Assembly: GCF_001921205.1 (NCBI RefSeq)
Contig: NZ_MSIE01000097.1
Coordinates: 1 to 32,085 of the forward strand
Direction: 5' to 3'
Source: Actinophytocola xanthii
Lineage (GTDB): Bacteria > Actinomycetota > Actinomycetes > Mycobacteriales > Pseudonocardiaceae
DNA: 32,085 bases
In this document: positions 12,067 to 32,085 of the stretch, piece after piece
Layout of the letters: every line of letters starts with the position of its first letter
How positions within the stretch are numbered: the stretch's first letter is position 1
Notes under the pieces: generated by a model
What the model saw: the letters and a program-made list of their open reading frames with translations, nothing else
Databases searched by the model: none
What the model was told of the DNA's origin: nothing
Position numbers and translations under genes: made by a program

Positions 12067-13362
12067 ATGCCCAGCGACACCGCCGTGCTCGTGGATCCGG
12101 ACACCTACGTGACCGGCGTGCCCTACGAGGCGCTGGCACGGCTGCGCCACCGGGCGGCGGTGGTGTGGGTGGACGAGCCGGACGGCCCCGGGTTCTGGGC
12201 GGTGCTGCGACACGCGGAGGTCAGGCACGTCCTGCGCGACGCGGCGGTCTACTCCTCACACCTGGGTGCGACCCAGATCCAGGACCCGCGCGACGAACGG
12301 GCACTGCGGTTCGTCCGCCAGATGATGCTCAACCAGGACCCCCCCGAGCACTCCCGCCTGCGAGGGCTGCTGGCCAGGGCGTTCACCCCCCGCGCCGTGG
12401 CCCGGCTGGAGGACCGGATCCAGGCCTGGGCGGTAGAGCTGGTGGAGGCGGCCGCCGGGCGGGCCGAGGTCGACTTCGCCACCGACATCGCGGCCGACCT
12501 GCCGCTGCGCACGCTCGCCGAGATCTTCGGGGTGCCGGTGGAGGACCGCTGGCTCATGTACGACTGGAGCAACCGGGTCATCGGCTACCAGGACCGCGAG
12601 TACGCGACCTCGGCCAGGGCCACGGCGACCGGCTCGACGGAGATGGCCCGGCGCGCGCTGGCCCTGCGGCCCCGGCCGGACGCCGACGGGTTCCTCCCCG
12701 ACCAGCGCACCCGCGAGGGAATGCCCGACCTGTACGCCTACGCCCACGAGCTCGGGGAGCACAAGCGCCGCGAGCCGGGCGAGGACGTCATGTCCAACCT
12801 GATGCGCGAGGTCGACGAGGACGGCGGGCGGGTGTCGGTGGGTGAGTTCGAGAACCTCTTCTGGCTCTTCGCGGTGGCGGGCAACGAGACCCTGCGCAAC
12901 GCACTGCCCGGCGGCATGATCGCCTTGATGTCCCATGTGGACGAGTACCGGCGGCTGCTGCGGAACCGGGAGCTGGTCGGCCCGGCGGTGGAGGAGATGC
13001 TCCGCTGGTGGACGCCGGTCATGCGCTTCCGCCGAACGGCCACAGTAGACACCGAGCTGGGCGGGACGCGGATCAGGGCCGGGGACAAGGTGGTCGTCTG
13101 GTTCTCCTCGGCCAACCGGGACGAGCGGGTGTTCAGTGACCCCGACCGCTTCGACGCGACGCGGGCGGCCGGCGAGCACCTGAGCTTCGGCCACGGCCCG
13201 CACTACTGCATCGGCGCGCACCTGGCCAAGGTCCAGATGCGCGCCCTGTTCACCGCGCTGTTCGACGTTCTGGGCGAGGTCGAGCCGGCCGGGAAGCCGG
13301 TCCGGCTGCGCTCGAACTTCCAGAACGGGATCAAGCACCTGCCGATCCGCCGGCGGCTGTAG
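12067..13362 (+). CDS. Cytochrome P450 (CYP124/125/142-like)
   Basis: A 431-residue soluble bacterial P450 that would hydroxylate a hydrophobic substrate using electrons from a ferredoxin partner; no redox partner gene is present in the window. The heme-binding loop is FGHGPHYCIGAH with Cys381. The K-helix motif is EMLR, and the I-helix is FAVAGNETLRN. The AGNET.RN form and the FSSANRDERVF segment are typical of the CYP124/125/142 group, which acts on sterol side chains and branched lipids; this subfamily call is tentative. There is no strong ribosome site. A TAGACAAT stretch ends about 6 bp before the ATG, so a leaderless transcript is possible. Confidence 0.92.
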   Translation: MPSDTAVLVDPDTYVTGVPYEALARLRHRAAVVWVDEPDGPGFWAVLRHAEVRHVLRDAAVYSSHLGATQIQDPRDERALRFVRQMMLNQDPPEHSRLRGLLARAFTPRAVARLEDRIQAWAVELVEAAAGRAEVDFATDIAADLPLRTLAEIFGVPVEDRWLMYDWSNRVIGYQDREYATSARATATGSTEMARRALALRPRPDADGFLPDQRTREGMPDLYAYAHELGEHKRREPGEDVMSNLMREVDEDGGRVSVGEFENLFWLFAVAGNETLRNALPGGMIALMSHVDEYRRLLRNRELVGPAVEEMLRWWTPVMRFRRTATVDTELGGTRIRAGDKVVVWFSSANRDERVFSDPDRFDATRAAGEHLSFGHGPHYCIGAHLAKVQMRALFTALFDVLGEVEPAGKPVRLRSNFQNGIKHLPIRRRL

Positions 13363-13381
13363 TTCCGCGTCGGTTCTCGCG

Positions 13382-14866
13382 TCACCCCGAGGCCATCGAG
13401 TGCTGGCGGTCGTCCCCCGAGGCGTTGTCGCCGCTGTCGCCCCGTCTGTCCAGGAGCGCGAGCCCGAGGGCGACCACGACCAACGCCACCGCGCCGAACA
13501 GCGCCACCGCGAGGCCGGTCTGGTAGCGCCCGCCCGTCGCCCCGACCGTCGCGTAGAACACCGCGGCGAGGACGGCGGTCCCCATGGCCGCGCCCATCCG
13601 CTGGCCGGTCTGCAACACGCCGCTGGCGACGCCGGCCAGCGTCGGTGGCACCCGGGAGAGCGTGATCGTGGTGTTCGGCGAGATCACCGCTCCCCCGCCC
13701 AGCCCGGCGACCAGCAGCGGCAGCACCATCGCCAGCAGCAGGTGCTCGCGCGGCACGAGCAACGCCACGACCGCGGTGACCGCGAGGCCGGCGGCGACCG
13801 TGGCCAGCCCGACGACGGTGATCAGCCGACCCCAGCGGGACACCAGGCGACCGGCCACCCAGGCCGAGACCGCCGACCCCAGCGCGAACGGCGTGACCGC
13901 CGCCCCGGACTCGAGCGGCGAGAACCCCAGGCCGGTCTGGAAGAACACGGCGAACACGAGCCAGATGCCGGAGAACCCGCAGAAGTACACAGCGGACAGC
14001 GTCGCGCCCGAGGGGTACCCAGGAGCCGAGAACAGGCGCATGTCCAGCAGCGGGGCGCGGTCCCCGGCCACCCGCCGCCGCTCCCAGCGCAGGAACGCGT
14101 ACCCCAGGACGAGGGCGATCGGGAACAACCACCAGAACCGCCGCAGGCCGTCGGCCTCGGACTGCACGACCGGGAACATCACGGCCAGCACGCTGAGCCC
14201 CAGCAGCACCATGCCGACGAGGTCGATGTCCGACCGCACCGAGCCGGACGACGTCGCCGGCACCAGGAGGAACGCCAGCAGCAGCGTCAGCAGGCCGAAC
14301 GGCAGGTTCACCAGGAACACCCACCGCCAGCCGTCGGGGTCGTCGAACACGTTCAGGATGAGCCCGCCGATGACCGGCCCGGCGGCGGTGGACACGCCGA
14401 TCGTGGCCCCGAGCATCCCGAAGGCCCGCCCGCGTTCCGGGCCGCGGAACATGTCCTGGATCAGCCCGCCGTTCTGCGGGGTGACCAGGCCGGCGACCAG
14501 CCCCTGCAACAGCCGGGCGACCACCAGCAGGGTCAACGTCGGCGCGAGCCCGGCGGCGACACTGGTGAGGATGAACCCGCTGAGCGCGATCAGGTACATC
14601 CGGCGGCGGCCGAACGCGTCGCCGAGCCGCCCGCCGGTGACCAGCGCGAGCCCGAAGGTCAGCGGGTAGCCGGAGACCACCCACTGCACGCCGCTGGCGG
14701 AGGAGCCCAGCCCGTCCTGGATGGCCGGCACGGCGACGGTGACGATGCTGACGTCGAGGAGAATCATGAAACCGCCGGCCAGCGTCACGATCAGCGCCCG
14801 CCAGCGGCGTGGATCTTCACCGGGGGCGTGCTCCTGGTACGACGCGCGCGAGGGTCGGGGGGCCAT
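13382..14866 (-). CDS. MFS drug-efflux-type transporter, DHA2 (EmrB/QacA) family
   Basis: A 494-residue membrane protein with the 14-helix DHA2 layout of proton-driven drug exporters. Visible signatures: LLDVSIVTVAVPAIQ in helix 1, motif A GGRLGDAFGRRRMY after helix 2, and the antiporter motif C region GPVIGGLI in helix 5. The tail is polar (DRRGDSGDNASGDDRQ). The ATG at 14866 has only a weak upstream ribosome site. It lies 95 bp downstream of a second MFS gene on the same strand, so the two may be co-transcribed. The substrate is unknown. Confidence 0.9.
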   Translation of the reverse strand: MAPRPSRASYQEHAPGEDPRRWRALIVTLAGGFMILLDVSIVTVAVPAIQDGLGSSASGVQWVVSGYPLTFGLALVTGGRLGDAFGRRRMYLIALSGFILTSVAAGLAPTLTLLVVARLLQGLVAGLVTPQNGGLIQDMFRGPERGRAFGMLGATIGVSTAAGPVIGGLILNVFDDPDGWRWVFLVNLPFGLLTLLLAFLLVPATSSGSVRSDIDLVGMVLLGLSVLAVMFPVVQSEADGLRRFWWLFPIALVLGYAFLRWERRRVAGDRAPLLDMRLFSAPGYPSGATLSAVYFCGFSGIWLVFAVFFQTGLGFSPLESGAAVTPFALGSAVSAWVAGRLVSRWGRLITVVGLATVAAGLAVTAVVALLVPREHLLLAMVLPLLVAGLGGGAVISPNTTITLSRVPPTLAGVASGVLQTGQRMGAAMGTAVLAAVFYATVGATGGRYQTGLAVALFGAVALVVVALGLALLDRRGDSGDNASGDDRQHSMASG

Positions 14867-14961
14867 TCCCGAGGTCTACCCCGATCGGGACGGTCGTACC
14901 ACCTACCACCCGGTCGCCGAGGCGTGACGGTGGCGACAGGACGCACTCGGCCGGCTCGCGG

Positions 14962-16443
14962 TCACGCGGGAACCTCGTCCCCGGTTGTCCTTCGGGGTAT
15001 CCAGCGCAGGGCGAGCAGTCCGAGCCCCGCACACAGGGCCGCGGCGACGCCGATCGCGACGTGGAGCCCGGTGAGGAACGCGTCCTCGGCCTGCTCGAGT
15101 GCCGCACCGGCGGCCCCGGCGGTGACGGTCTCCCCCAGCGTCGGGGCGATGTCCGGGCCGAGGGACCGGAAGACGAGGACGGCGGTGGAGCCGAGCAGGG
15201 CGATGCCGAGGGCGTTGCCGAGCTCGTTGGACGTCTCGGCGATCGCGGCGGCGGAACCGGCGCGATCGACGGGCACGGCGGCGACGGCGGTGTCGGCGAC
15301 GAGGGCGAAGGAGAGGCCGTACCCGAAGCCGGCCACGACGGTGGAGGTGACGTACCAGCCGGTCCCGCCGGTGGTGGTCGTGGCCAGCAGCAGGAGAAGG
15401 CCGACGGCCATCGAGAAGTGGCAGACCACCAGCGTCACCCGGGGCCCGACGCGGTCGACGACGGCGGGGGTGAGAACACAGGTTGCGGTGAGCACGGCCG
15501 CGCCGGGCAGGGCGAGCAGCGCGGCGGTGAGCACCGGCAGGCCCAGGACGGTCTGGAGGTAGATGCCGGTGAGGTACGCGGCCGCCGACCACGCCACCAG
15601 GGACAGCACCCCGGTGACGATCGCGACGGTGAACACCGTCGAGCGGAACAGCCGCACGTCCACGAGCGGATGGTCCAGCACCCGCTGCCGGAGCACGAAC
15701 CGGACGAGCGCGCCGACACCGACGACCCCGGCGACCGCCGCCTCGGTCGACGGGCCGTAGGCAGCGAGGGTCTTGACCGAGTACACCGCGAGCAGCAGGC
15801 CGCCCGCGGACAGGGCGATGCTGGCCACGTCGACTCCGCCGGGTCGCCTCGTGCGGACCTCGCGCAGCAGGAACGGCGCGGCGACCAGGAACGCGGCGGC
15901 GACGGGCAGGTTGACGAGGAACACCGACCCCCAGTCGAAGCGGCTCAGCAGCAGCCCGCCGACGACCGGCCCGATCGCGAACCCGGCGGCGAAGGTGGCG
16001 GCGAAGATGCCGATCGCTCGGGATCGCTGACGGGGGTCCGCGAACAGCTCGCCGAGCACCGCGAGCCCGGACGGCAGCAGCGTCGCGCCGCCCAACCCCA
16101 TGAGGACACGGAAGGCGATGAGGATCTCCGGGGACGGGGCGTACGCGGCGCCGGCGGAGCCGGCCGCGAACACGGCGACGCCGATCATGAGGAGCCGGAA
16201 CCTGCCGAAACGGTCACCGAGGTTGCCGAACGCGATCAGCAGCGAACCGACGACGAAGCCGTAGCCGTCGAGCACCCACAGCGCCTCGTCCGCGGTCGGA
16301 GCGAGGGCCTGGGTGATTCTCGGCATGGCCAGGAACAGCACCGAGCCGTCCATCGAGACCAGCAGGACGGGACCGAGGACGACCAGCAGTCCGAACCAGT
16401 CCCGCCGGCCGGCTCTCCGCGAGGTCGCTGAGGGGTGAGTCAC
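14962..16443 (-). CDS. MFS drug-efflux-type transporter, DHA2 (EmrB/QacA) family
   Basis: A second 14-helix MFS exporter of about 493 residues, only distantly similar to its downstream neighbour. Signatures are LVSMDGSVLFLAMPRI in helix 1, motif A FGNLGDRFGRFRLL, and motif C GFAIGPVVGGLLL. I choose the GTG at 16443, with GAGGGTG upstream, over a longer reading to 16560. The longer form would add a Pro/Gly-rich stretch and overlap the divergent regulator gene. The 103-bp gap to the MmyB-type regulator gene is the natural control region, so that regulator may control this pump. Confidence 0.9.
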   Translation of the reverse strand: MTHPSATSRRAGRRDWFGLLVVLGPVLLVSMDGSVLFLAMPRITQALAPTADEALWVLDGYGFVVGSLLIAFGNLGDRFGRFRLLMIGVAVFAAGSAGAAYAPSPEILIAFRVLMGLGGATLLPSGLAVLGELFADPRQRSRAIGIFAATFAAGFAIGPVVGGLLLSRFDWGSVFLVNLPVAAAFLVAAPFLLREVRTRRPGGVDVASIALSAGGLLLAVYSVKTLAAYGPSTEAAVAGVVGVGALVRFVLRQRVLDHPLVDVRLFRSTVFTVAIVTGVLSLVAWSAAAYLTGIYLQTVLGLPVLTAALLALPGAAVLTATCVLTPAVVDRVGPRVTLVVCHFSMAVGLLLLLATTTTGGTGWYVTSTVVAGFGYGLSFALVADTAVAAVPVDRAGSAAAIAETSNELGNALGIALLGSTAVLVFRSLGPDIAPTLGETVTAGAAGAALEQAEDAFLTGLHVAIGVAAALCAGLGLLALRWIPRRTTGDEVPA

Positions 16444-16546
16444 GAGTTCACCCTCGGGACTCGGCCGGGCCGCAGCCATCCCTCCGCCGTGGGTACACCT
16501 GGCGGGGGCAGGCTCGCCGACACCTCCCGGGCATACAGTCGACGGC

Positions 16547-17401
16547 GTGCGCACCGACACCCTCGGCGTGTTCCTCCGGACGCGACGCGACCGCGTCAGC
16601 CCGGAGGAGGCCGGCCTGCGCGTCTACGGCACCCCCCGGCGCGTGCCCGGCCTGCGGCGGGAGGAGCTCGCCCAGCTCGCCGGCGTCAGCGTGGGTTACT
16701 ACACCAGGCTGGAACAGGACCAGGCGGGAACCGCCTCGTCCCACGTCCTCGACGCGCTCGCCCGGGTGCTCGGCCTCGACGCGGCCGAGCGGACCCACCT
16801 GCGCAACCTCGCCCACCGGCCCACCGTGCCCCGCCTCGTCCGGCCCGCACCCGAGACCCCCGCCCCACGCGTGGTGGCCCTGCTCCGCGCACTGGGCGAG
16901 AGCGTGCCCGCGATCGTGCTGGGTCGACGTGGGGACGTGCTCGCGTGGAACCACACCGGCCACACCCTCGTCGCCGAGCACCTCGACCACCGCGCCCCGG
17001 ACGATCCCGAGACGAGGCCGTCGATCCCGACGATGTTCTTCCTCGACCCGCTGCACCGCGACCTCTACCGGAACTGGGCACAGCTCGCCCGGATCCACGT
17101 CGCCTACCTGCGCCTGACCGCGGGCCGGTACCCGGACGACGCCCGGCTGGCCGAGCTCCTGGGCGGGCTCACCATGCGCAGCGCCGAGTTCGCCACGATG
17201 TGGGCCACCGGCGACGTCGCCGACTGCACGACCGGCCCGATGGACCTCCAACACCCCACCATCGGGCGCCTGGACGTCGACTACCAGGTCTGGCTCCAGC
17301 CCGACAGCCCCGACCAGCGCCTGGAGGTCTACACGCCCCGCGACCGGCCGGCGCAGGACGCTCTCCGGCTGCTCCGTCGCTCGTCGGGTGTGGTCGGGTA
17401 G
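16547..17401 (+). CDS. XRE-family regulator with MmyB-like ligand-binding domain
   Basis: A 284-residue transcription factor. The N-terminal helix-turn-helix is at about residues 37-60 (GLRREELAQLAGVSVGYYTR), preceded by the characteristic RRVPGLRREE. The rest is the MmyB-like sensor domain, with typical GRRGDVLAWNHTGH and GGLTMRSAEFATMWA segments; this domain is reported to bind a small hydrophobic ligand. The GTG at 16547 is the start. The gene lies 10 bp upstream of the nitric oxide synthase gene in the same direction and diverges from an MFS exporter, so it probably controls one or both. Both relationships are inferred from position. Confidence 0.93.
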   Translation: MRTDTLGVFLRTRRDRVSPEEAGLRVYGTPRRVPGLRREELAQLAGVSVGYYTRLEQDQAGTASSHVLDALARVLGLDAAERTHLRNLAHRPTVPRLVRPAPETPAPRVVALLRALGESVPAIVLGRRGDVLAWNHTGHTLVAEHLDHRAPDDPETRPSIPTMFFLDPLHRDLYRNWAQLARIHVAYLRLTAGRYPDDARLAELLGGLTMRSAEFATMWATGDVADCTTGPMDLQHPTIGRLDVDYQVWLQPDSPDQRLEVYTPRDRPAQDALRLLRRSSGVVG

Positions 17402-27366: not shown

Positions 27367-27951
27367 ATGCGCCCTTCCCTGAGCGAGATCCTCGCCAGGG
27401 CCGGCCTCCGGGTCGACCCCGAGGAGTTCCTCACCCTGGTGGAGGACGCCGCACGCCGCCTCTCCCCCGCCGACCCCGACCCGGCCGAGTACTTCGCCCC
27501 CGCGCAGCGCGCCGTGTTGAGCGACGTCGGGCTGGACCTGTCGCCGCGCCGCCCGGAGGAACGCGACTCGCGCGCCCGGGCCGTCGCCGCCCAGGCCGTG
27601 CTGCGCGACACGGCGCTCACCGTGGCCGGAGCCGCCGAACGCATCGGCGTGGACACCAGCCGGATCCGCCACCGCCTGGCCGAGAACCGCCTCAGCGGCT
27701 GGAAGGATCGGGGCGGCTGGCGCCTACCGGTGTGGCAGTTCACCAACACCTCGGTCCTCCCCGGCCTCGAAGCGGTCCTCCGAGCCACCCCCGACGACCA
27801 ACCACCCCTGGTCGTCGCCGCCTTCATGACCACCCCCCAGGCCGACCTCCTCCTCGGCCAGGACCCCACCACCCCCCGCGACTGGCTCCTCTCCTCCGGA
27901 GACCCCACCCGAGTAGCCCGCCTCATCGCGACGCTCGGCACCCCCGCCTGA
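27367..27951 (+). CDS. HTH protein resembling MbcA/ParS/Xre antitoxins, without a toxin gene
   Basis: A 194-residue protein. A helix-turn-helix is at about residues 78-108 (LTVAGAAERIGVDTSRIRHR), followed by KDRGGWRLPVWQF, as in excisionase-like DNA-binding proteins. The C-terminus (PRDWLLSSGDPTRVARLIAT) resembles the segment that binds RES-family toxins in MbcA/Xre-type antitoxins. No RES-domain toxin gene follows, so it may be an orphan or have another function. A TACCGT box ends 6 bp before the ATG, suggesting leaderless expression. The last 200 bp use unusually many CCC/ACC codons. The assignment is tentative. Confidence 0.7.
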   Translation: MRPSLSEILARAGLRVDPEEFLTLVEDAARRLSPADPDPAEYFAPAQRAVLSDVGLDLSPRRPEERDSRARAVAAQAVLRDTALTVAGAAERIGVDTSRIRHRLAENRLSGWKDRGGWRLPVWQFTNTSVLPGLEAVLRATPDDQPPLVVAAFMTTPQADLLLGQDPTTPRDWLLSSGDPTRVARLIATLGTPA

Positions 27952-28068: not shown

Positions 28069-29142
28069 TCACGTGCCCAGCCCACGACTTCGCCGCCACC
28101 ACAGCCCGAGTCCCACCGCGGCCGCGCCGAGCACCGCAAAGACGATTCGCAACACCAAATTCTGCCCGCTTGCGAGAATCGGTGGCAGAGCGATTGCGCT
28201 CGCTGCGCCGATACCGAGCGTGGGCGCGAACAGGGCTACCGAACGGGCCGGCCGGATCGACAGCGGTATCCGCACGGTCGGCCCCAGTGTCGGCTCCGCT
28301 GTCCTGATAACGAGCTCACCCCTGGCATGGCTCTCGCGAAACGGCGGGAACAGCCGGACCGGGATGACGTCGTAACGAGAGCGAATGACGATCTCCTGAT
28401 CGGTAACCACTTCAAGCGCTTCCGGCGCGGTCACACTGATCCTCGCCGGTTCTGTGAGCGGTTCGTGATGGAAGTGAGCGACGTTTAGAACGTACTCTGT
28501 CCCTGCCACGAACGGCACCGATCCGTTCTCGTCGGGTTGGACCTGCTTACTAGACTCGGTCTCGATCGAGGTCACGCGGAAATAGGTCCTGGCCCTCTGG
28601 TATGCGGGTACTGACGGGGTCAGGAAACGGACAAGTGTCTCGAAGTCCCGGCCTGCATCGTCGGTAGGAGCCACCAGTCCTTCGGGTGACCCACCTGTCG
28701 TCGCGTGCACCGCGTGGTCGGGGTTCGCCTCGACGAGCAACTGTCTCAAAGCGGTCGAGTACTGCTGCACCGCTGCCGCGCGTTCCGCCGAAGAGTTCTG
28801 TGGTCGATCCGCAAGGGGCAGGTATCTACTCAGCCTAAAGTAGACGATATAGGTGTTGCCTTCGACAAGCGTGCGCACGACGGTCCCCTGCCGCAAAGGG
28901 ATGAACACCGCTGGGTGAAACCCGGCCGCGTGCTGCAAAGAAAAATGAACAACGACTTCACATCCATCCAGCTCTTTTCTTTTCCAAAGCTCCCGCGTCT
29001 GGTTCGATATGTACTTCCCCTCATAGCGGAAGCGATGATGGATCCCAACCGGACTGGCCACGATGTCTATCGCGTCACTGATGTAGAGTTCCCTGATGTT
29101 CGAGGTGAACAGGTGGAGCCAAGAATCGCAGACGTCAGACAA
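28069..29142 (-). CDS. Unrecognised protein with two C-terminal membrane helices
   Basis: A 357-residue protein of no family I can name. The N-terminal ~120 residues (WLHLFTSNIRELYISDAIDI, FRYEGKYIS, VVHFSLQHAAGFHPAVF) look like a compact cytosolic domain. A Gly/Asp-rich linker follows, then a beta-rich, Ig-like stretch at about residues 195-295. Two hydrophobic helices follow near 302-322 and 329-348, with a basic end (WWRRSRGLG). The TTG at 29142 has GAGAG 6 nt upstream and overlaps the YunG gene by 8 bp. As the last gene of the operon, it may link the operon's output to the membrane; that is inference. Confidence 0.65.
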   Translation of the reverse strand: MSDVCDSWLHLFTSNIRELYISDAIDIVASPVGIHHRFRYEGKYISNQTRELWKRKELDGCEVVVHFSLQHAAGFHPAVFIPLRQGTVVRTLVEGNTYIVYFRLSRYLPLADRPQNSSAERAAAVQQYSTALRQLLVEANPDHAVHATTGGSPEGLVAPTDDAGRDFETLVRFLTPSVPAYQRARTYFRVTSIETESSKQVQPDENGSVPFVAGTEYVLNVAHFHHEPLTEPARISVTAPEALEVVTDQEIVIRSRYDVIPVRLFPPFRESHARGELVIRTAEPTLGPTVRIPLSIRPARSVALFAPTLGIGAASAIALPPILASGQNLVLRIVFAVLGAAAVGLGLWWRRSRGLGT

Positions 29143-29518
29143 TGTTCTCTCGCAACTCGAACTCCGCCGTCACCTGGGACAGCAGTCGTTCGTAGCGACT
29201 TCGCGTTTCAGAATTATTTAGCAGTCGCTCTCTCTGTTGCACACTGACGTCGGTCGGAACAAACCGAGAAAACTGCTCCCTGGTCAGGTCGATGTCACCG
29301 TCGGGCAGGCGGTTCCAGTAGTGTGAAACCGTTCCAACCTTCGCTCGAATCAGGTCCCCACCGAGATACTCCTGGATGACAAGAGCGGTCACCGCGCACT
29401 GACCGAGTGCTGGATTGCCCGAGGACCACGCGGGATCTACGGAGGTCGCTGCCGACCACCGGCTGCGCAGTGCCGCGAACAGTCGCTGCCTGCTGACCTC
29501 GCCACTTCCCTCGGCCAC
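29135..29518 (-). CDS. YunG-family protein
   Basis: A 127-residue protein matching the YunG family by the run NPALGQCAVTALVIQEYLGG, then TVSHYWNRLPDGDIDLTREQF. The conserved Cys and His suggest a papain-like or transglutaminase-like arrangement, but no activity is established for the family as far as I know. The GTG at 29518 lies 19 bp after the nucleotidyltransferase stop, in the same operon; the C-terminus overlaps the next gene by 8 bp. Members occur widely in bacteria as small cytoplasmic proteins, often annotated hypothetical. Confidence 0.75.
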   Translation of the reverse strand: MAEGSGEVSRQRLFAALRSRWSAATSVDPAWSSGNPALGQCAVTALVIQEYLGGDLIRAKVGTVSHYWNRLPDGDIDLTREQFSRFVPTDVSVQQRERLLNNSETRSRYERLLSQVTAEFELRENIV

Positions 29519-29536
29519 CGTCCGAGTATAGCGAGG

Positions 29537-30229
29537 TCAACCAGTAGGACCAACCCCTGTTCGCCACGAGCGGTAATGGGCAACGGCTGCCCGCAATTCG
29601 GGACTCAATGATCCATTCGCTATCCGAGAGAGCGTTACACAGGACACATCTGCGATGTGAAGGTCCTGGATCGTCAGACCGATTCGCAGGCTGTGGTCGA
29701 CGACGCGCCGCAGAAGTGCGGCGACAATTTCCGGCGCAGCATCCCAACCTGCTTCGAGCAGGCGGGTCCTTCCGCGCAGGAGATCACGGTAGCCGTCGTT
29801 CGGATCTATGACCGTTGCGCAGTTGAGGGGCAACGCGAGCGAGTTGCCCGACATGTCCGCACACTTGAGTGCGTCTGGCAAGGTCAACGCGACTCTGGAT
29901 GGTGAGGCTGGCGGGAATATATCTACGGTGATGCCATCTCCCAACTCCACGCGTGGATTGCCGAAGAGCGTCTCACCCAGCACGTATCTATTGCGCAGGT
30001 CGGATGCCAACTTGCTGATATCGCCGGTGTAGATCAAGTCGATATCCCGTACGTCATCAGCCGCCCGACCCAGGACGAAGTCTCGCACCGCGCCGCCGGT
30101 GACGAAGGCCTGGTCCGGGTCGAGGCGGTTGAGTAGGTCGCTGGCACGCACGAACCTTTTCGTTCTTAGTAACCATCTTTGCCAGTGCGCGGTGGACAAC
30201 GCCAGATCACGACCCGTCAAGTTCATCAT
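29537..30229 (-). CDS. Poly(A)-polymerase/CCA-type nucleotidyltransferase, head domain only
   Basis: About 230 residues with the class II nucleotidyltransferase signature AFVTGGAVRDFVLG, followed by the two metal-binding aspartates Asp62 and Asp64 in VRDIDLIY. The later segment DGITVDIFPP supplies the third acidic residue. The fold transfers nucleotides to RNA, proteins or small molecules. True CCA-adding enzymes are about 400 or more residues with RNA-binding neck, body and tail domains; these are missing or minimal here, so a tRNA role is unlikely. I start at tandem ATGs (30229/30226), overlapping the HD gene by about 20 bp; a reading from 30421 adds a Cys/Trp-rich stretch that looks non-coding. 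The substrate is unknown. Confidence 0.75.
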   Translation of the reverse strand: MMNLTGRDLALSTAHWQRWLLRTKRFVRASDLLNRLDPDQAFVTGGAVRDFVLGRAADDVRDIDLIYTGDISKLASDLRNRYVLGETLFGNPRVELGDGITVDIFPPASPSRVALTLPDALKCADMSGNSLALPLNCATVIDPNDGYRDLLRGRTRLLEAGWDAAPEIVAALLRRVVDHSLRIGLTIQDLHIADVSCVTLSRIANGSLSPELRAAVAHYRSWRTGVGPTG

Positions 30230-30848
30230 CCGCGAAAAGGTGGGGACGCTTCGCAAACTCGGCGCACAGTTCGACAAAGATCGGCAGTAGTTTTGGGAAG
30301 GCTTCAGCGATCTTGGCATTTGCGGCCCGCTCCGTAGCGGCGTATTCGGCCCAGGTCCGCCGCAACGGGTGCGCATCCGCCAACAGCACCATCGCGTGTG
30401 GCAGCAGTTTGTCCATCGCATAGACGAATCTGCTCTCCGGCTCGTCGCCGGCGTAGTACGCGCGAAGCCGGTCGACCAGCCAGGGGAACTGGTCCTGGTT
30501 CTCGACGATGATCCGCTCGAACGCTTGAGCCTCCCTCACGCTCTTCGTGGCCTTGTCCACTGTTTCGGCATACACAGAAGTGTCGCCTGCATACACCTCC
30601 ACAAAATCGTGCACGAGGGCGTATTGAGCGACCAGTCCGACGTCCAAGGTCGCGTCTATCAGCGGCGCAAAACAGCAGGAGGCCACGCCCAGAGAGAACG
30701 AGTGCTCGGCATCGTTCTCTAGGCGGCCTCGACCGTCAGGAACGAAGACCGTTCGATTTATCCCGCACATCGGAACGACGACGTTCCTCATCAGCTCAAG
30801 CAGGGACTGCGCGGACGGCCGGGCCTCCTCCTGATTGGTCGACGTCAT
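30207..30848 (-). CDS. HD-domain phosphohydrolase (YfbR/HDDC2-like)
   Basis: A 213-residue HD-superfamily metal-dependent phosphohydrolase. Metal ligands visible are His49 in ENDAEHSFSL, the His80-Asp81 pair in ALVHDFVEVYAGDT and Asp146 in YAMDKLLPH. The spacing and the HDFVE..AGDT motif match the HD_3 group, which includes 5'-nucleotidases such as YfbR. The ATG at 30848 overlaps the upstream gene's stop as ATGA, so it is translationally coupled; the longer reading to 30941 is rejected. Neighbouring a nucleotidyltransferase, it may remove or recycle the nucleotide that enzyme uses; that is inference. Confidence 0.82.
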   Translation of the reverse strand: MTSTNQEEARPSAQSLLELMRNVVVPMCGINRTVFVPDGRGRLENDAEHSFSLGVASCCFAPLIDATLDVGLVAQYALVHDFVEVYAGDTSVYAETVDKATKSVREAQAFERIIVENQDQFPWLVDRLRAYYAGDEPESRFVYAMDKLLPHAMVLLADAHPLRRTWAEYAATERAANAKIAEAFPKLLPIFVELCAEFAKRPHLFADDELDGS

Positions 30849-31798
30849 GTGCGCTTCACTCGAAGGTACGCGTTGGGCAGAACGGTGACCATTCGATGGA
30901 CAAGTGGCTGCGCGCACCGACTGGTGGAGCGAGCTAGCCACACTATTGGTGGAGTTTCGAGCATCTGCCCGATCGTACCGGTCATCACACGCCGGGTGGA
31001 GTACAGGCCCTGCTCATCGTACTGGTACGTCATCGGAGTGAGCGCAAACGGAACAAATCCAGCAGACCGCAGTGATGCTCCGTCGAACCCAAGCAAAGGG
31101 TTGAGCGCGGTGATGAACACGTCTGAGTTCCAACAACGTCTCAGCTCACGCGCCGACCAGGCGATCAACCTGCTGACGAGGTTCATAGGCAGTTCAACTG
31201 TCGCCGTGGATCTCGTCAGGACGAGTACGCTCTCCGGAGCCAACTGGCGTCGTCCGTGGGTGGCGTTAGTCAAGGCATCGAGCAGGTACTCGCGATCACA
31301 AGGAGAGAAGGAGAGACACAGGGCCGGGACATCGGTGTTTGGCGCGAAAGCGCCGACATGCACAACGGTGTCCGCGCGCTCGCAGTGGAGGTAATGTACC
31401 TCCCGCTGAAGCCATAGTCCGATCTCTCCAGGGACGGAACCGAGGCGCGGTTGCTCGGAGCGCGTGATCCGGCTGAGGGAGAGGTCGGGCAACGCCCCGC
31501 CAGCCGCGAGGTGACGATAGACCTCATCGGTCCGGCGGAAACGCTTGTCGAGACGAGCGGTGAGCATCCGTGTGGCTGTCTCCGGTGACGCGGTGATCGC
31601 TTGCCTGCTCAGTGCCGGGATGTGCAGTCGACACTGCTGCTCGGCATAGTTCTCGGGAAGTTGGAGGGCGTCCCATGCTGGCGGAGAATTCCGAGACACC
31701 ACGGCGGCGAACCGCTCGACGAACGGATCTCGGGTGACCCGCAGGAGTTCCTTCCACTGGTCCCGAGGAGACAAGCTGGGCGAACGTCCGTCAGTCAT
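30845..31798 (-). CDS. GNAT-like protein of unknown substrate, first gene of the five-gene operon
   Basis: A 317-residue protein I cannot name. The C-terminal half has GNAT-like or Mom-like character: a beta strand plus helix (NLVSRLIAWSARELRRCW), then NPLLGFDGASLRSAGF and YQYDEQGLYSTRR. The last two resemble the closing part of acyltransferase-like proteins that end N..LGF.G...R..GF. The N-terminal ~110 residues are helical and polar. ATG 31798 has GGACGGGGGAAC upstream, a good ribosome site. It is translationally coupled to the HD gene by ATGA. The GNAT assignment is from pattern only and is uncertain; a DNA- or RNA-modifying acyltransferase is one reading. Confidence 0.62.
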   Translation of the reverse strand: MTDGRSPSLSPRDQWKELLRVTRDPFVERFAAVVSRNSPPAWDALQLPENYAEQQCRLHIPALSRQAITASPETATRMLTARLDKRFRRTDEVYRHLAAGGALPDLSLSRITRSEQPRLGSVPGEIGLWLQREVHYLHCERADTVVHVGAFAPNTDVPALCLSFSPCDREYLLDALTNATHGRRQLAPESVLVLTRSTATVELPMNLVSRLIAWSARELRRCWNSDVFITALNPLLGFDGASLRSAGFVPFALTPMTYQYDEQGLYSTRRVMTGTIGQMLETPPIVWLARSTSRCAQPLVHRMVTVLPNAYLRVKRT

Positions 31799-32085
31799 GT
31801 TCCCCCGTCCGGCTGGTTGGCGCGGGCGACAACGTGAGTCCCGGTATTGCGATTATCCACCTGCGAGTCGCGCACGTTCACGCCAAAACGACGAGGTGGA
31901 CCCGTCCCGCCGAGCCGGCCAGATTCCTCTGAAGGAGATCTTGCGTCTCGGAGGAGGGCTGGGAGGCGGCGTTGAGTCACTCGCCTTCGCAGGAGTTGCC
32001 AACGTTCGACGCCGACTGCCGACCTCGTCAGCACGACGACTCTGAGAACGTGTTTGAGATCTTGGTCGGCGTGGCTGGTTGATCT
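31799..32085. other. Upstream region of the five-gene operon, no confident gene
   Basis: These 287 bp hold the ribosome site and a candidate promoter for the operon. A possible 79-residue minus-strand reading from 32034 ends with an ATGA overlap on the GNAT-like gene, but it is Arg-rich and shows no domain, so I do not call it. The final 40 bp run into an uncharacterised right edge. Confidence 0.5.
31852..31880 (-). promoter_or_regulatory. Candidate promoter of the five-gene operon
   Basis: On the minus strand GATAAT (31852-31857) lies 17 bp downstream of TGAACG (31875-31880). The -10 matches consensus at five of six bases, the -35 at three of six. The start would be about 45 nt upstream of the GNAT-like ATG. 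Confidence 0.38.

Follow-up and report, generated by a model that had tools for sequence, protein, structure and literature searches.

We analyzed a stretch of 32085 bases, referred to here as the window, which is an entire contig (NZ_MSIE01000097.1) of the 8.34 Mb Actinophytocola xanthii assembly. The minus strand of the window carries five open reading frames (ORFs) at 28069-31798. An earlier note, made from the sequence alone, had described these as five minus-strand genes with short overlaps, and we find the ORFs, their positions and their spacings as described there (Table 1). The note had also taken the cluster for a coherent and unusual set, and for four of its members this holds: in other genera, homologues of genes 1, 2, 4 and 5 again lie together, with genes 1 and 4 fused. 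Because these homologues recur side by side elsewhere, the five-gene cluster is not a chance arrangement. Genes 1, 2, 4 and 5 form a conserved unit, to which gene 3 does not belong. The product of gene 1 is a relative of Mom, the acyltransferase of phage Mu.

Table 1. Genes of the cluster in the window (aa, amino acids; bp, base pairs; products predicted).
Gene	Position	Strand	Predicted product	Length, start and junction
gene 1	30845..31798	-	Mom-related acyltransferase, GNAT fold	317 aa
gene 2	30207..30848	-	HD-domain phosphohydrolase, relative of the 5'-deoxynucleotidases HDDC2 / YfbR	213 aa; ATGA overlap of 4 bp with gene 1
gene 3	start 30229 or 30226, end 29537	-	nucleotidyltransferase, head-only CCA/polyA-polymerase type	20-23 bp overlap with the HD gene
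gene 4	29135..29518	-	YunG protein	127 aa; GTG start; 18 bp gap after gene 3
gene 5	28069..29142	-	membrane protein	357 aa; TTG start; 8 bp overlap with gene 4

Several of our genome searches scored 5-9 candidates per genome, so that absences are to be read as lower bounds, and the class samples differ between searches. In a class sample of 246 genomes, three besides the window's had homologues of gene 1, and an alignment-based search recovered ten Microbispora records and one Actinomadura physcomitrii record. In Microbispora, a single ORF of ~500 aa combines a Mom-like part with a C-terminal YunG part, and a gene-5 homologue follows directly; this fusion is present in 12 of 15 Microbispora species genomes and in two more genera of the same family. 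M. bryophytorum and M. catharanthi are among the carriers of the cassette. A gene-5 profile matched 7/296 genomes of the class (five full-length matches and two marginal ones covering the C-terminal part only) and 18/220 genomes of the family that contains Microbispora. The fusion adjoins gene 5 in 17 of these 18 carriers (12 Microbispora plus G691, G801, G764, G791 and G811); in the 18th, G807, a contig edge truncates the locus, which keeps its HD gene (45% identical to gene 2). An HD gene is adjacent in 10/10 Microbispora records, in G843, at L033, L050 and L051, and at L055, where gene 5 lies at a contig edge. The genes were thus found together rather than scattered separately, and neither is the set conserved in all close relatives, two outcomes that the earlier note had held would speak against a system: gene 1 occurred in 1/60 genomes sampled from the window's own family, that one being the window's, and the set was not found in the 59 others.

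Within Microbispora, dN (nonsynonymous divergence) was lower than dS (synonymous divergence) in 15/15 comparisons (five chosen pairs, three genes each), with dN/dS of ~0.22-0.37 for the fusion, ~0.17-0.55 for gene 5 and ~0.18-0.51 for the HD gene, the latter two sets of values being blurred because the HD gene and gene 5 overlap antisense at their 3' ends. In G843 (L094 4054-4983), an insertion breaks the Mom-YunG gene downstream of residue ~203 and contains a 260-aa ORF that looks transposase-like by eye. Among the Microbispora genomes without the cassette, G161 and G905 carry part of its right flank, a gene from the left flank, which encodes a WYL-domain regulator, has matches elsewhere in G161, and no clean empty site was seen in the cassette-free genomes compared. 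The Actinomadura physcomitrii record (L023 9809-10570) is an N-terminal remnant of a Mom-like gene, and YunG, gene 5 and HD were not detected around it.

Family searches with gene 1 returned two matches, both weak and both to Mom (PF25680, E 0.063; phrog_1384, E 0.007); the PF25680 match was stronger in two relatives of gene 1 (E 2.1e-4 and 0.0056). Profile comparison with hhalign aligned the gene-1 family to seven canonical Moms, six from phages and one from the genome G510, at P 95.9 and E 5e-9. The control comparison with four ordinary GNATs gave P 0.1 and E 0.51; since this control profile of four diverse sequences also missed the phage Moms, it indicates specificity at the sequence level and does not rank folds. 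In a Foldseek search with the AlphaFold model of the fusion, itself a poor model, Mu Mom (8bv8) was the sole PDB match at E<=1e-3 (E 8.3e-4), and the next non-Mom chain followed at E 2.0e-2. A four-row gene-1 profile, run on 396 genomes of the phylum, had two matches, the window itself and a G510 protein of 245 aa, and a search with the latter matched Mu Mom along with 279 further phage records. G510, from the same phylum, has a genome of 2.6 Mb; its canonical Mom (contig C230, 7020-7757, within L034 6270-8895) perhaps belongs to a mobile element, and the flanking ORFs read by eye like ParB and a helicase.

Alignment of 15 proteins, eight from cassettes and seven canonical Moms, showed seven invariant residues (H, Y, G, L, R, S and a second G); the conserved residues of gene 1 are H135, Y136, G149, L194, R196 and S209. 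H58-Y59 and R111 of Mu Mom, which we take to be catalytic, are kept in 15/15 of these proteins, as is S124, the position that the title of PDB entry 8bv8 gives as inactivating. Gene 1 thus resembles Mu Mom in its GNAT-type catalytic domain and differs from it in other respects: it has ~110 additional N-terminal aa that are absent from the aligned phage Moms, it is chromosomal, it stands with YunG as a fusion or in the same operon, it has HD and membrane partners, and no phage or plasmid copy was found. As described in one paper, Mom transfers an acyl group onto adenine N6, and momylation systems, which share with the cassette a Mom-family GNAT outside Mu-like phages, are present in phage and bacterial genomes (PMC7824862). 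In jumbo phages, according to the same paper, Mom is typically fused to a restriction endonuclease (PMC7824862), whereas the C-terminal partner in the cassette is YunG. The product of Mu Mom is termed N6-methylcarbamoyl adenine (ncm6A) in a second paper (PMC8281217). The statement in the earlier note that the GNAT-like and YunG genes fit no system known to its author is answered in part only: it no longer applies to the GNAT-like gene, the Mom relative.

Gene 4 matched the Pfam YunG family PF24585 far above the cut-off of 27 bits (108.8 bits, E 2.3e-31), while the YunG part of the fusion scored below it in two relatives (19.8 and 16.9 bits), such that the relatives' copy differs from the family both in its score and in its fusion to a Mom-like domain. 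Across 12 fused, stand-alone and plasmid-borne sequences, W, C, H, D, T and Q were invariant (W21, C41, H66, D77, T79 and Q82 in gene 4), and gene 4 is accordingly predicted to be a Cys-His-Asp enzyme. In papain/transglutaminase-like enzymes, a helix that begins with the Cys is followed by strands bearing the His and then the Asp, and the YunG part of the low-confidence fusion model has its elements in the same order. In nine other genomes of the class, stand-alone YunG genes had no Mom, HD or gene 5 within ~1.5 kb on each side, indicating that YunG also exists independently of the cassette, and gene 4 alone matched 23 plasmid records. In a literature search that mostly fell short of full texts, we found no described function for YunG, a widespread family, and no paper joining Mom with YunG.

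The product of gene 2 is an HD_3 protein (E 7.8e-24, 84.9 bits, cut-off 22.5) whose metal site, H49, H80-D81 and D146, together with E84, is invariant in 6/6. Among solved structures, 3kh1, HDDC2 and YfbR come closest, and gene 2 shares its HD_3 domain and H...HD...D site with the YfbR / HDDC2 5'-deoxynucleotidases (PDB 2paq and 4dmb; 3kh1 is listed as a 'predicted metal-dependent phosphohydrolase'). Unlike these, it belongs to a separate subfamily specific to the cassette. Among 148 genomes of the class, proteins with 57, 57 and 56% identity to gene 2 were found in exactly the three genomes that have a Mom cassette, at the cassette, and no other HD protein listed, not even a second copy in one of these three genomes, exceeded 39% identity. 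The HD protein of the Microbispora cassette, encoded convergently after gene 5, is 55-58% identical to gene 2, and those of further genera are 53-54% (L033, L050, L051) and 45% (L055) identical. In these alignments, genes 1, 2 and 4 retain the residues expected of working enzymes.

For gene 5, the AlphaFold model consists of an alpha/beta N-terminal domain, an Ig-like beta-sandwich and two C-terminal helices, 300-322 and 329-352, which we take to be membrane-spanning on the strength of the prediction. The N-terminal region is conserved across ten sequences; from the shape of its motifs, a PUA/EVE-like fold was a candidate considered for it but not adopted. No known family was identified: Pfam searches with nine members gave nothing better than E 0.024, and residues 11-70 matched phrog_30351, of unknown function, only weakly (E 0.0053). 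The Foldseek matches listed were mostly Ig-like or other beta-sandwich proteins and covered part of this low-confidence model.

It is very likely that the cassette has a shared function, because two of its genes are fused, its HD protein forms a subfamily of its own and the association is repeated in different chromosomal settings. Because of the relationship to Mom, a nucleobase is its most likely substrate, a choice to which we give about as much weight as to all other substrates together. The best explanation available, which we hold tentatively and place slightly short of an even chance, is a chromosomal cassette that makes or edits an acyl-type nucleobase modification, a substrate and role that we infer. 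In this model, the Mom-like enzyme would, like Mom, acylate an exocyclic amine on a nucleobase, with adenine in DNA as the most probable target, and the exchange of one Asp for Asn would suggest another donor or product. The YunG enzyme could then use its Cys-His-Asp site to remodel the acyl or amide group, either by hydrolysis or by amine exchange. The HD enzyme might dephosphorylate (modified) deoxynucleoside monophosphates from degraded DNA, preventing their reuse, and the gene-5 protein might anchor the system at the membrane or read it out there. We infer the precise chemistry, the clearing of modified nucleotides and the membrane role alike. The nucleotidyltransferase of the window would be an added accessory, and the benefit would most likely lie in self-marking or in changed susceptibility to nucleases and phages.

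In addition to the limit of the GNAT control given above, a number of observations weigh against a nucleobase-modifying cassette. The PF25680 cut-off of 27.1 bits was missed by gene 1 (13.4) and by the two better-scoring relatives (21.5 and 16.8), and the position of Mu Mom D149 is Asn in 8/8 cassette proteins (N233 in gene 1) and Asp in 7/7 canonical Moms. The AlphaFold models are poor, with a mean predicted local distance difference test score (pLDDT) of 46.7 for the fusion and 57.0 for gene 5. YunG is mostly found without Mom, and its chemistry is predicted from residue conservation. No DNA-binding or restriction domain was recognized in the cassette, and post-replicative DNA modification needs no membrane protein. 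L053 and L054 have no HD gene beside them, and a second copy of gene 5 (L052 8374-9426 in G811:C1, 48% identical to the Microbispora protein) stands alone, with no Mom, YunG or HD detected. As regards a restriction-modification system of the momylation type, which would include an endonuclease, no endonuclease family was recognized in the cassette proteins scanned, with the N-terminal domain of gene 5 unassigned and the genes beyond the contig end out of view.

An unlikely alternative, although the strongest of those outside nucleobase modification, is that the acyltransferase and the Cys-His-Asp enzyme tailor a small molecule such as a nucleoside, an amino-sugar or a peptide metabolite, with the HD protein acting as a phosphatase on a nucleotide intermediate. 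The named carriers, Microbispora and the Actinomadura remnant, are consistent with this, both genera being actinomycetes rich in secondary metabolism, and the Asp-to-Asn change would allow a new substrate. Moreover, YunG adjoins an ordinary GNAT in 3/10 plasmid contexts (Priestia, Stenotrophomonas and Lysinibacillus, the last two representing one gene order), indicating that the pairing of GNAT with YunG is not limited to Mom. However, the loci read, with neighbours partly scanned for families, gave no sign of a synthase, ligase or transporter accompanying the cassette, and the nearest acyltransferase family acts on DNA. The plasmid records of Stenotrophomonas rhizophila (L067) and Lysinibacillus fusiformis (L068) have near-identical gene order over ~8 kb around YunG and their hosts belong to different phyla, which may reflect a mislabelled record, contamination or recent transfer.

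The earlier note had seen in the cluster a resemblance to nucleotide-signalling or nucleotide-modification immune modules. In an anti-phage module of the signalling kind, the nucleotidyltransferase would make a signal, the HD protein degrade it and the membrane protein act as effector. We consider this quite unlikely and rejected it as the principal explanation, since the nucleotidyltransferase is not conserved and PADLOC had no match for the five genes. The domain mix in the window does favour such a module, as does the architecture of gene 5, with a soluble part followed by two C-terminal helices. The resemblance, however, depends on gene 3, which was present in 1/197 genomes, the window's own, and absent from all the relatives' cassettes that we read. 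Gene 3 is also of the CCA/polyA type: it matched the PolyA_pol head of Pfam (E 4.1e-8), of which the head domain alone was recognized, its GGxVRD and DxD motifs look intact by eye, and full-length NCBIfam models for CCA-adding/polyA polymerases reached at most 17.2 bits, without the combination of head and RNA-binding body. From these comparisons, gene 3 is best seen as an accessory of the window's copy alone. Similarly, the signal synthase and effector families recognized for a cyclic-oligonucleotide-based antiphage signalling system (CBASS) were not recovered.

Base composition and distribution bear on the same question. The G+C content of the cassette is 0.608 compared with 0.725 for positions 1-28000 (the contig is ~72% overall), the shift being located at the 3' end of the cassette, and this apparently acquired patch, together with the patchy distribution of the cassette, would suit an anti-phage module. 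The relatives' cassettes, at 0.67-0.73, are not clearly under their flanks, which makes the 61% patch a peculiarity of the window. Mobility was not evident either: tblastn of gene 1 and of the Mom-YunG fusion against plasmids and phages found no Mom-like copy, gene 3 had no copy in plasmids or phages, the Microbispora gene 5 and gene 2 (limit 1e-20) had none in plasmids, and scans of viral contigs for genes 1, 3 and 5 found none. The phage-record searches covered genes 1 and 3 and the fusion (not genes 2, 4 and 5). We set aside the idea of mobile-element cargo, as these plasmid and phage tblastn searches yielded nothing except one YunG-only plasmid match.

The PADLOC search found no match for any of the five proteins at E<=1. 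Directly upstream of the Microbispora cassette, a gene for a WYL-domain regulator (L007 6179-7168) matched PADLOC models of CRISPR-associated WYL proteins at E 5.3e-47; WYL regulators often control defence genes, and this neighbour speaks mildly for a role in conflict. Chosen neighbours, ten proteins per scan with Pfam and PADLOC, comprised a response regulator, an LTD protein, an EF-G-like protein, the WYL regulator, FAD-dependent enzymes, a GNAT and an IS605-type ORF; clear defence-model matches among the ten were limited to the WYL protein and the IS605/TnpB-type ORF at one locus, and we accordingly rejected a defence-island setting. The earlier note had looked to consistent co-conservation in defence islands for support, and here the outcome is divided: four of the five genes are co-conserved in other genera, while the nucleotidyltransferase falls out and the neighbours scanned do not make up defence islands. 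An immune role of some kind is possible but unproven. In its favour are the patchy distribution, the low G+C of the window's copy, the WYL neighbour and the fact that some Microbispora have lost the cassette; the PADLOC result, the lack of Mom-like copies on plasmids and phages, and the general lack of defence-type neighbours count against it.

A further possibility, which we regard as improbable, is that the Mom-like GNAT acylates a protein or a charged tRNA, as GNAT toxins do, and that YunG undoes or edits this acylation. The weak fold matches included GNAT toxins such as TacT (E 0.5), and fusion of a writer to a putative eraser would permit control, but the match to Mom in sequence and fold is better than that to every other GNAT listed, and the 5'-deoxynucleotidase relatives of the HD protein point to nucleotides. 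Finally, an ordinary operon whose metabolic genes are unrelated, or clustering by chance, is disfavoured to the point of being barely credible: although the Microbispora cassette lies among metabolic genes and is widely inherited (12/15), and the insertion-disrupted copy in G843 indicates that it is dispensable, the gene fusion, the distinct HD subfamily and the recurrence in different chromosomal settings all argue otherwise.

In the window, genes for sugar metabolism (an FGGY kinase, a fucose isomerase and a LacI regulator), not for defence, lie to the left of the cassette. On the other side, 287 bp separate the start of gene 1 from the contig end, beyond which the operon could continue; an ORF on the minus strand at 31795-32085 is open at the contig end and overlaps the start of gene 1. 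Beside the low-G+C patch, at 27367-27951, a 194-aa gene has a weak match to an excisionase/MerR-type helix-turn-helix (NCBIfam 'excise', E 0.0011, below the cut-off). At 13000-17000, the AT skew is 0.2-0.37 across ~4 kb, unlike the remaining window.

A more far-reaching version of the nucleobase-modifying cassette, which we regard as doubtful, is a new base-hypermodification pathway composed of a Mom-derived writer of an acyl-amide with a changed active site, a papain/transglutaminase-like YunG converter fused to it, a dedicated HD enzyme that clears modified nucleotides and a membrane protein that reads the state of the system. Were this pathway to hold, the YunG family would gain a function. 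Mom relatives have already been described in phages and bacterial genomes (PMC7824862); what is found here is a conserved chromosomal cassette built around a Mom-YunG fusion. The cassette offers an experimentally tractable starting point for finding a new nucleic-acid modification, as well as a functional handle on YunG.

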